From the NCBI GenBank assembly GCA_017853885.1, contig JAFMIR010000004.1, positions 62,001-126,000 on the forward strand: DNA of 64,000 bases, read 5' to 3'. Shown here in pieces: positions 7,065-9,882 of the stretch (position 1 is its first letter; each line of letters begins with the position of its first letter). Source of the DNA: Prosthecobacter sp. (GTDB taxonomy: Bacteria > Verrucomicrobiota > Verrucomicrobiia > Verrucomicrobiales > Verrucomicrobiaceae). The notes under the pieces were generated by a model that was given only the letters and a program-made list of their open reading frames with translations, had not been told where the DNA came from and did not search any database. Made by a program: the position numbers and the translations under genes.

Positions 7065-8297
7065 ATGAAGCCCACAAGCACGCGCCTCATCGTTCTAGCC
7101 GGGCTTTGCTCGGCAGCGGCATTGGCGTATTTTGTGCGAAATGGTGTCGCCCCTGCCGAGAGTACGATCCGTGCGGATCTCGGACTCACGAAGGAGGATT
7201 CGGGTATGATGATAAGCGCATTCTTCTGGCCATACGCGCTCTGCCAGATCCCAGCGGCGATGTTGGCGCAAAGGCTCGGAGCGAGATGGGCGCTGGTGAT
7301 GTATGCGCTGATGTGGTCGCTGGCCACTGCTGGCTTTGCGCTGGGGCAGCTAGGATGGATGACCGCCTCGCGGGCCTTGATGGGTGTGGCTCAGGCGGGG
7401 CTTGTTCCGGTGGGTGTTGGCGTGATGGCTGGATGGTTTCCCAAGATGGCACAGGCTTCGGCAGCCGGAGCATTCAGCGGGTTCATGTCGGTAGGAAGCA
7501 TCGTGGCAGCACCGTTGACGGCGTGGTTTTTGATGAGTGGGGGCTGGCGATGGATGTTCATTCTCTATGCGGTGCCGGGCATCATTTGGGCCGGTTGGTT
7601 TGCGTGGTGGTATCGAAACCGTCCTGCGGAACACCCATCCGTGAATTTAGCAGAACTCGAATGGATCGAGAAAGGCAGCTCATCAGCTGCGCTGACGGCT
7701 CAGGCGATCCCGTGGAAGAAACTTTTGTTGAGCTTATCTCTTTGGCTCCTGTGTGCGCAGCAGTTTTTTCGCGCCGCAGGATATATTTTCTTTGCGAGCT
7801 GGTTTGCCACTTATTTACAGGAGGCACGCGGTATGACGCTGGTCAAGTCCGCCTGGCTCACGACACTGCCGCTGTTGGCGGATGTGGCAGGCGGTTTCTC
7901 CGGTGGACTCCTTTCTGATGCGTTGATGCGCAGGACAGGCAGCGCGTGTCTCTCTCGCCAAGGCATGGCCATGATCCTGCTTCTACTATGCGCAATGCTA
8001 ATCTTGGGTGCTTGGTTCGTGGCGCAACCGGTGCTGGCTGTGATGATCATTAGTGCAGGAATGTATTGTGCCGGCGCGGTGAATCCCTGCTACTCAGCCA
8101 CACTCATGACCTTCGGCGGACCTCACGCAGGCACCGTGAGCGCCGTCACAAACATGTGTGGCAACCTCGGAGCAGCCTGCTTTCCCATCATGGTGCCGTG
8201 GCTGATTGCCCACGCCGGCGGCTGGGATGCCGTGCTTGCCGGTTTTGGAGCCATTTACATGGTAGCGGCAATGCTTTGGTCGCGAGTGAGGATTTAG
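7065..8297 (+). CDS. MFS transporter (anion:cation symporter-like, sugar-acid uptake)
   Basis: The 410-residue protein has about 12 hydrophobic helices and the MFS loop signature after helix 2 (AQRLGARWALVMYAL). Helix 1 ends in a polar GVAPAESTIRADLGLTKEDSG segment like that of hexuronate and galactonate symporters (ExuT/DgoT group). It begins 4 bp after the dehydratase stop and is almost surely co-transcribed with it, so it probably imports the dehydratase substrate or a relative. Its TAG stop (8295-8297) is also the first bases of a 165-bp palindromic element, so the last codons may have been changed by that insertion. Confidence 0.85.
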   Translation: MKPTSTRLIVLAGLCSAAALAYFVRNGVAPAESTIRADLGLTKEDSGMMISAFFWPYALCQIPAAMLAQRLGARWALVMYALMWSLATAGFALGQLGWMTASRALMGVAQAGLVPVGVGVMAGWFPKMAQASAAGAFSGFMSVGSIVAAPLTAWFLMSGGWRWMFILYAVPGIIWAGWFAWWYRNRPAEHPSVNLAELEWIEKGSSSAALTAQAIPWKKLLLSLSLWLLCAQQFFRAAGYIFFASWFATYLQEARGMTLVKSAWLTTLPLLADVAGGFSGGLLSDALMRRTGSACLSRQGMAMILLLLCAMLILGAWFVAQPVLAVMIISAGMYCAGAVNPCYSATLMTFGGPHAGTVSAVTNMCGNLGAACFPIMVPWLIAHAGGWDAVLAGFGAIYMVAAMLWSRVRI

Positions 8298-8459
8298 ACC
8301 CTTTCTCAAAAAGGATGTCTGAAATGATCGGCGAGCACGGCGGCCTCAGTGGCAAGGAAGGCGAACAGGCTATTGGGACAATAGCTAACGAGCGAATGAC
8401 ATTGCCAATGAGCTTGGCCCGCGAACGAGAATCAGACAGACTTTGTGAGAAACGGTCTA
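8295..8459. mobile_element. 165-bp palindromic MITE-like element with 28-bp terminal inverted repeats
   Basis: Left end 8295-8322 begins TAGACCCTTTCTCA. Right end 8432-8459, read on the other strand, begins TAGACCGTTTCTCA; the two 28-bp ends match at 24 positions. The midpoint (8377) is exactly the loop of a perfect 7-bp hairpin, GCTATTG (8369-8375) GGA CAATAGC (8379-8385), and interior arms also pair (CTCAGTGGCAA against CTCATTGGCAA). The whole element is thus one long imperfect hairpin. TA stands at both ends, as expected for insertion at TA by an IS630/Tc1-type transposase; that family link is inference. It lies between convergent genes and contains no gene. A bidirectional terminator role is possible but would not explain such long conserved ends. 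Confidence 0.6.
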
Positions 8460-8494
8460 GAATCGTTATGCCATCACACCAAGCGAGAGGCACA

Positions 8495-8980
8495 TCAACA
8501 AGGCCGGGGTGACCCACTTTCCGTGTGATCTTGCGCCCAGCACCGTGTGCGGTGGTGGCGATAGATGAAGAGGAGTTTGAGATAGAGGCGCACAGCGGTT
8601 TCGGAGATCAGTTTACCCCACCAGGCGCGGCCAAAAGCATAGGTGATGCTGTCGTGCATGAGGCAACCGCCTTCGGCAAGCGGCTCGAAGCGGTGCTCGT
8701 GCACGAATTGCGCAAAGGGGCCTTCGAGCATCTCATCCACCAGCACAGTGGGAGGCTGCACGGTGTGCCAGCGACATTTCCAGCGCATGGGAATGAAACC
8801 CCAATCGCGACAGTGAAACTCGATCAGGTGGTCTTGCTGGGCGGGGCCGTCAGTTTGCAAGCTCACGAGCTTCAGCGTGGGCGGCATAACGTAGACGATG
8901 TTTCTAGGATCACTGTGAAACGCGAACATGATTTCCGCGCTGGCGGCAAGGCGAGTGCTGGCACGAAAGTTGGATGTCAT
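8495..8980 (-). CDS. SRPBCC/START-like ligand-binding domain protein
   Basis: The start MTSNFRASTRLAASAEIMF at 8980 is chosen; the frame stays open far upstream but there it overlaps the RarD-like gene and loses protein character. The 161-residue product is a single helix-grip domain: the N-terminal strand and helix (AEIMFAFHSDPRN), central strands (DHLIEFHCRDWG, RWKCRWHTVQPPTVLVDEML), then FVHEHRFEPLAEGGCLMHD and a long C-terminal helix. Relatives (CoxG and polyketide-cyclase-like groups) bind hydrophobic ligands; none can be named here. It starts 2 bp after the stop of the permease gene on the same strand, so the two are likely translated together. Confidence 0.75.
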   Translation of the reverse strand: MTSNFRASTRLAASAEIMFAFHSDPRNIVYVMPPTLKLVSLQTDGPAQQDHLIEFHCRDWGFIPMRWKCRWHTVQPPTVLVDEMLEGPFAQFVHEHRFEPLAEGGCLMHDSITYAFGRAWWGKLISETAVRLYLKLLFIYRHHRTRCWAQDHTESGSPRPC

Positions 8981-8982
8981 GA

Positions 8983-9882
8983 TCAGGCTTTTATCACGAT
9001 ACGCCGCGCATAGAGAAACAGATGGCCACAGAACAAGACTACGCCGATCCAGATCAGCCCAAAAGACATCAAAGAAGCCACATTGAGCGGTTCGCCATAC
9101 ACAAGCGAGCCTATGAGAAACTGACCGGTGGGCGCGAGGAATTGCAGCACGCCCAACAGCGCGAACGGCAACTCGCGAGCAGCTCGGGCAAAGCCAAGCA
9201 GAGGGACAGTGGTGATGACGCCGAGGCCTAGGATGAGCAGCACATCTAGCGTGGAAGCGGTCCCCCAGATCGCGGATCCCATGTGCTCGCTCCAAATGAG
9301 ATACAACAAAGCCACGGGGATGCCAACGATGGTCTCCATCGCAAGTCCAGGCAGCGACCCGAGCGAAGAGCGACGTCTGGCGAGGCCGTAGAGCGCAAAA
9401 CTGCCCGCTAGTAGCAGGCCGATCCATGGAAAGCGTCCAACGAACACGAGTTGCATCGCCACGCCTGCGGCTGCGGAGACAATGCTGATCTTTTGCAGGT
9501 TTGAAAGATTCTCGCCGAGCCAAAAGCTGCCGATCAACACGTTGAGGAGTGGATTGATGAAGTAGCCTAGGCTGCAATCGAGAATGTGCCCATGCTGTGC
9601 GGCCCAAACAAAGACACCCCAGTTGATTGCCAGCAGGAAGGCGGACCCAACATGGGTTTTGATCAGTTTAAGGCTGCGAAGCGATTGAAGAAAGCCAGCC
9701 CACTCGCCATGCAGTATGAGAAGCGGCAGCACCGTGGCCATGGTCCATACCACCCGCTGCGCCAGTGCCACATCGCTGCCTAAATGGCCAATCTGCCTCC
9801 AATACACCGGCAGCACACCCCATAGACTAAAAGCCATCACAGCACCCATAACAGCAATGCTGGATGGACGGGCAGAGGGCAT
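8983..9882 (-). CDS. rarD: EamA-family permease, RarD type
   Basis: The 299-residue protein has about ten hydrophobic helices in two EamA halves. It begins with the RarD-type segment FSLWGVLPVYWRQI, followed by ALAQRVVWTM and the motif SLGYFINPLLNVLIGSFWLGE in helices 3-4. The second half ends FGLIWIGVVLFC. RarD is named for chloramphenicol sensitivity, but the family generally moves small metabolites, so the substrate is unknown. The SRPBCC gene follows after 2 bp on the same strand and CstA lies 43 bp downstream of this gene's start on the left-transcribed side. Confidence 0.85.
   Translation of the reverse strand: MPSARPSSIAVMGAVMAFSLWGVLPVYWRQIGHLGSDVALAQRVVWTMATVLPLLILHGEWAGFLQSLRSLKLIKTHVGSAFLLAINWGVFVWAAQHGHILDCSLGYFINPLLNVLIGSFWLGENLSNLQKISIVSAAAGVAMQLVFVGRFPWIGLLLAGSFALYGLARRRSSLGSLPGLAMETIVGIPVALLYLIWSEHMGSAIWGTASTLDVLLILGLGVITTVPLLGFARAARELPFALLGVLQFLAPTGQFLIGSLVYGEPLNVASLMSFGLIWIGVVLFCGHLFLYARRIVIKA

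Follow-up and report, generated by a model that had tools for sequence, protein, structure and literature searches.

The window, a stretch of 64,000 nucleotides from a Prosthecobacter sp. contig (JAFMIR010000004.1), carries an MFS transporter gene and a convergent downstream open reading frame (ORF), with a palindromic element lying between them (Table 1). The TAG stop codon of the MFS gene occupies positions 8295–8297 and consists of the left TA and the first G of the element. The ends of the element, TAGACCCTTTCTCAAAAAGGATGTCTGA (8295–8322) and TAGACCGTTTCTCACAAAGTCTGTCTGA (8432–8459, reverse-complemented), are identical at 24 of 28 positions, a match that no other 165-bp frame in the window attains: of 63,835 possible starts, only 8295 gives it. 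The layout is TA, 161 bp beginning with GACC and ending with GGTC, and TA; the 161 bp are the mobile unit proper and the flanking TAs are the target duplication. A hairpin with 7-bp arms (8369–8375 and 8379–8385) has its loop centred on 8377, which is the midpoint of the element. The structural claims of an earlier, sequence-only reading of this locus were thereby confirmed: the inverted repeats, the central hairpin loop, the TA at either end, the stop codon shared with the first three bases, and the lack of a gene, as the element is crossed only by mechanical overlapping ORFs.

Folding of the window element far exceeded that of shuffled controls, both as DNA (z −4.9) and as RNA (z −6.75), and an Rfam search of the element region returned no credible RNA family. 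Judged by its identity to the consensus of its subfamily (Table 1), the window copy is evidently old and appears to have decayed since it was inserted.

Table 1. Coordinates of the window element, its neighbouring genes and a longer form found in a relative.
Feature	Position	Strand	Basis
MFS transporter gene, TAG stop rebuilt by the element; kept without the element in 14 relatives	7065..8297	+	ORF list, flank search
Left TA target-site duplication; doubles as bases 1–2 of the MFS stop TAG	8295..8296	.	Sequence; TA/TA in 88/114 members
MITE body of 161 bp (GACC...GGTC), a member of subfamily A with 84.5% identity to its consensus	8297..8457	+	Family comparison
Left terminal inverted repeat; outermost ~23 bp similar to the termini of the 1,125-bp IS630 element	8297..8322	+	End comparison
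Central 7-bp hairpin GCTATTG-GGA-CAATAGC, middle of the fold-back	8369..8385	.	Sequence, fold
Right terminal inverted repeat	8432..8457	-	End comparison
Right TA target-site duplication	8458..8459	.	Sequence
Convergent downstream ORF (mechanical extent; conserved coding part probably the 3′ half)	8495..9607	-	ORF list, flank search
Copies of the 277-bp form	L172 592-872; L173 559-839; L174 540-820		Genome G015

Distribution of the family and empty sites

Further copies and flanking TA duplications, both proposed as checks in the sequence-only reading, were found. Searches by BLAST and a covariance model detected at least 17 distinct copies in the genome from which the window derives, a 4.27-Mb metagenome-assembled genome (MAG) in 108 contigs that is 94% complete. 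Nine of ten copies compared are 79–89% identical to their subfamily consensus, which indicates that the copies in this genome are mostly old; the tenth (C93) is 98.2% identical. Within the genus, 25 of 48 genomes carry the family, with up to dozens of copies each. Matches in GTDB representatives comprised 85 stretches, nearly all from Verrucomicrobiaceae or unplaced Verrucomicrobia MAGs, the named carriers being Brevifollis gellanilyticus and a Prosthecobacter debontii MAG. When 288 genomes sampled from the phylum were searched for the end pattern, only the window's own genome matched. A single match in Ilumatobacteraceae (L114) was set aside, as the model found no full element there and the match is, by our estimate, within chance expectation for the pattern.

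The 114 elements collected from this genome and its relatives are most often 163 or 165 bp long, and TA is present on both flanks in 88. Two large subfamilies, A (which includes the window copy) and B, can be told apart, along with small ones that differ in the interior; the ends are common to all. Two 165-bp elements (L178 420–584 and L186 543–707) combine the family ends with a quite different, GC-rich interior, which suggests that interiors change while ends stay. A 277-bp form with GACC...GGTC ends and a longer interior occurs in genome G015 in three TA-flanked copies, one with an altered left flank. At another locus (L180 265–345) two element ends are joined at one common TA, an arrangement consistent with insertion of one copy into the TA flank of another.

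Evidence of mobility was obtained from comparisons among relatives. Genome G015, an assembly of 6 contigs that is about 94% complete, contains five identical copies at unrelated sites. For three copies of one MAG (L088, L098 and L142), two sister MAGs have collinear flanks without the element. The empty site corresponding to L142 (L246) is a single TA, gatctt[TA]agtttcc. The sister alleles of L088 and L098 retain no leftover element sequence and have AA, CA or GA as the target dinucleotide; small gaps are present in two of these alignments. Three insertions are common to orthologous sites between those same MAGs, as inheritance predicts.

The expectation of empty sites was therefore borne out for three copies in a relative, one of them as an exact single TA, and not for the window copy itself. 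Searches of relatives with the flanks of the window copy and of C93 found no orthologous empty site for either, because those genomes have a different arrangement of genes past the element. The MFS gene is followed by no element in the 14 relatives that have it; the downstream region differs there, so that this locus is not a strict empty site. In a further genome (G028, L198), compared with window positions 7068–8525, an enolase-family gene is joined directly to the sequence found beyond the element in the window, and the MFS gene and the element (about 1.46 kb) are absent.

A full-length IS630 element with the same ends

The matching transposase gene that had been proposed as a check is present in two relatives. 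A 1,125-bp element with the family ends and TA flanks (L092, 1271–2395) encodes an intact 344-amino-acid transposase that scores 203.8 bits against the NCBIfam IS630 model (cut-off 100) and also matches Pfam DDE_3. A second intact 1,125-bp copy (L187, genome G022) encodes a protein 80% identical to the first, the intact transposases being 344–345 amino acids long. The frame is interrupted by a frameshift in another copy (L103), and a copy in genome G010 (L171) is internally deleted. The family ends are absent from every other IS630 locus that was examined in the genus. As judged from a comparison of the ends, the interior of the MITE is no evident deletion derivative of the interior of the insertion sequence.

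No IS630 transposase was found in the window's own genome at 94% completeness, and no relative of the matching transposase passed the search threshold in either this genome or G015. G015 has recent identical MITE copies, yet its assembly holds no transposase with matching ends; these observations fit a helper that has been lost or that lies in unassembled sequence. Contig C4 of G015 (L279, L283) carries, in two copies, a different IS630 element that has two frames and one end reading TAGAGCATTTTAAATAAAAGC; it was rejected as the partner since its ends are unrelated.

The element is short, gene-less, multi-copy and uniform in length, with terminal inverted repeats, a TA duplication and ends that match an autonomous IS630 element, all of which are characteristic of MITEs; an autonomous partner in the same genome, which is usual and not strictly defining, was not found. 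On the grounds of matching ends, multiple copies, TA duplication, empty sites in relatives and a full-length IS630 element with the same ends, the window element is almost certainly a non-autonomous MITE of IS630/Tc1-mariner type, on whose ends the transposase of the 1,125-bp element would act in trans, and the earlier assignment to this class is supported. Circumstances that had been named as speaking against it (a single copy, conservation in the same place with no empty site, or no matching transposase ends) were not encountered.

We propose the following mechanism. The transposase of the 1,125-bp element, which some species of the genus carry, would recognise the ~23-bp MITE ends in trans, excise the MITE and reinsert it at a TA, preferably within YTAR, duplicating the TA. 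Biochemical work on ISY100, a member of the IS630 family, has demonstrated insertion at TA with duplication, a cut-and-paste pathway and rare AA sites (PMC2170065). For elements of the window type, cut and paste is suggested by the ends, duplications and empty sites, and the window copy was probably moved by the transposase of the 1,125-bp element. That copy would have entered the MFS gene at the TA of its stop codon, where the G at the end of the element restored TAG and the protein stayed as it was; the copy would then have decayed, with no transposase left in the genome as assembled.

Insertion sites and alternative readings

A preference for YTAR is apparent in the target sites, as 39 of 87 insertions lie in CTAA/TTAG context versus 6.9% of control TAs. 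Both ends of the element start with G after the TA, so that an element entering a TAA or TAG codon, whichever way round, restores TAG. The insertion at the MFS stop codon, noted in the sequence-only reading, is real, TAG having been rebuilt by the G of the element. Native stop codons hold 20 of 61 non-genic insertions versus 8.2 expected when target context is matched (P about 5e-5), an approximately 2.4-fold over-representation in a test that used simple ORF calls as genes and counted at least one orthologous site twice (L162/L166). Insertions within called ORFs numbered 26 of 87 versus 54.7 expected. Purifying selection probably explains the enrichment at stop codons. ORFs restored after virtual excision were set aside as evidence; many of the long ones look like chance open frames, as the DNA is GC-rich.

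Could the palindrome instead be an intergenic hairpin with a host function, a bidirectional terminator or a stabiliser of mRNA 3′ ends, that is kept for its RNA structure and is not mobile? The strong RNA fold, the location between convergent genes and the over-representation at stop codons would accord with such a role, as would a full-length fold-back with compensatory changes at 15 pairs versus 8.0 in shuffles. The full fold-back was missed by the RNAalifold consensus and was therefore counted on a hand-written structure, in which pairing was found in 90.1% of cells. Kinship of the copies and palindromic origin can contribute to paired changes, which thus do not prove selection on RNA. A scan for intrinsic terminators (a GC-rich stem followed by a T run) found none in 8150–8650; a terminator role is accordingly unproven, and the earlier suggestion of a bidirectional terminator between the convergent genes is unsupported. 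Presence and absence between sister species, precise TA-duplicating insertion, the insertions within called ORFs, the missing element at the MFS locus of 14 relatives and the ends common to a full-length insertion sequence also argue against a host-function palindrome, which we regard as very unlikely. Individual copies could still have been co-opted locally for a host function.

Still less probable, to the point of being negligible, is a palindrome of REP/BIME type that a RAYT (Y1) transposase moves. The element is palindromic, dispersed and often extragenic, and one verrucomicrobial genome is known to have REPs of the GTAG type (PMC3733652), but REP/BIME units are GTAG/CGTC-tagged hairpins of 20–40 bp, whereas the element measures 161–165 bp, has long terminal inverted repeats and a TA duplication, and matches an IS630 element at its ends.

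Related elements and significance

The IS630-type MITE described here has several counterparts. RUP of Streptococcus pneumoniae, a non-coding palindrome of ~107 bp in about 100 copies that is associated with IS630-Spn1, likewise has ends like those of a resident IS630 element, a TA target duplication and a strongly folded transcript (PMC2229807, PMC3049150); it belongs to an unrelated organism, whereas the present family is longer (161–165 bp) and few carrier genomes hold the matching insertion sequence. Correia/NEMIS elements of Neisseria share ~24-bp terminal inverted repeats, TA ends, sizes of 107/155 bp and base-paired transcripts (PMC2229807), but differ in lineage and sequence. ERIC/IRU of enterobacteria is a small, non-coding, TA-ended repeat of ~127 bp with much shorter terminal inverted repeats (7 bp), for which a review lists no autonomous partner (PMC2229807), whereas a partner has been identified here. 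ISY100 and other IS630/Tc1-mariner transposons resemble the family in TA targeting and duplication and in occasional AA sites (PMC2170065), and the partner insertion sequence has a DDE_3 transposase; those transposons are autonomous, unlike the window element, which has the ends only.

No earlier description of such a MITE family in the Verrucomicrobiaceae lineage was found in the open-access papers searched. The family is new, belongs to a well-known, ordinary kind of element and is soundly demonstrated; through it the Verrucomicrobiaceae gain a MITE family that has clear boundaries and an IS630 element as its matched partner. How long such families spread after transposase loss becomes testable through identical recent copies in a genome that has no matching transposase. 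Perhaps, although we hold this at somewhat less than even chances, TAA and TAG stop codons are a silent safe harbour, a favoured niche for survival, in which the family persists and where the MITE gives genes new 3′ ends and 3′-UTR hairpins. The over-representation at stop codons makes it testable whether an end sequence sets a safe insertion niche.
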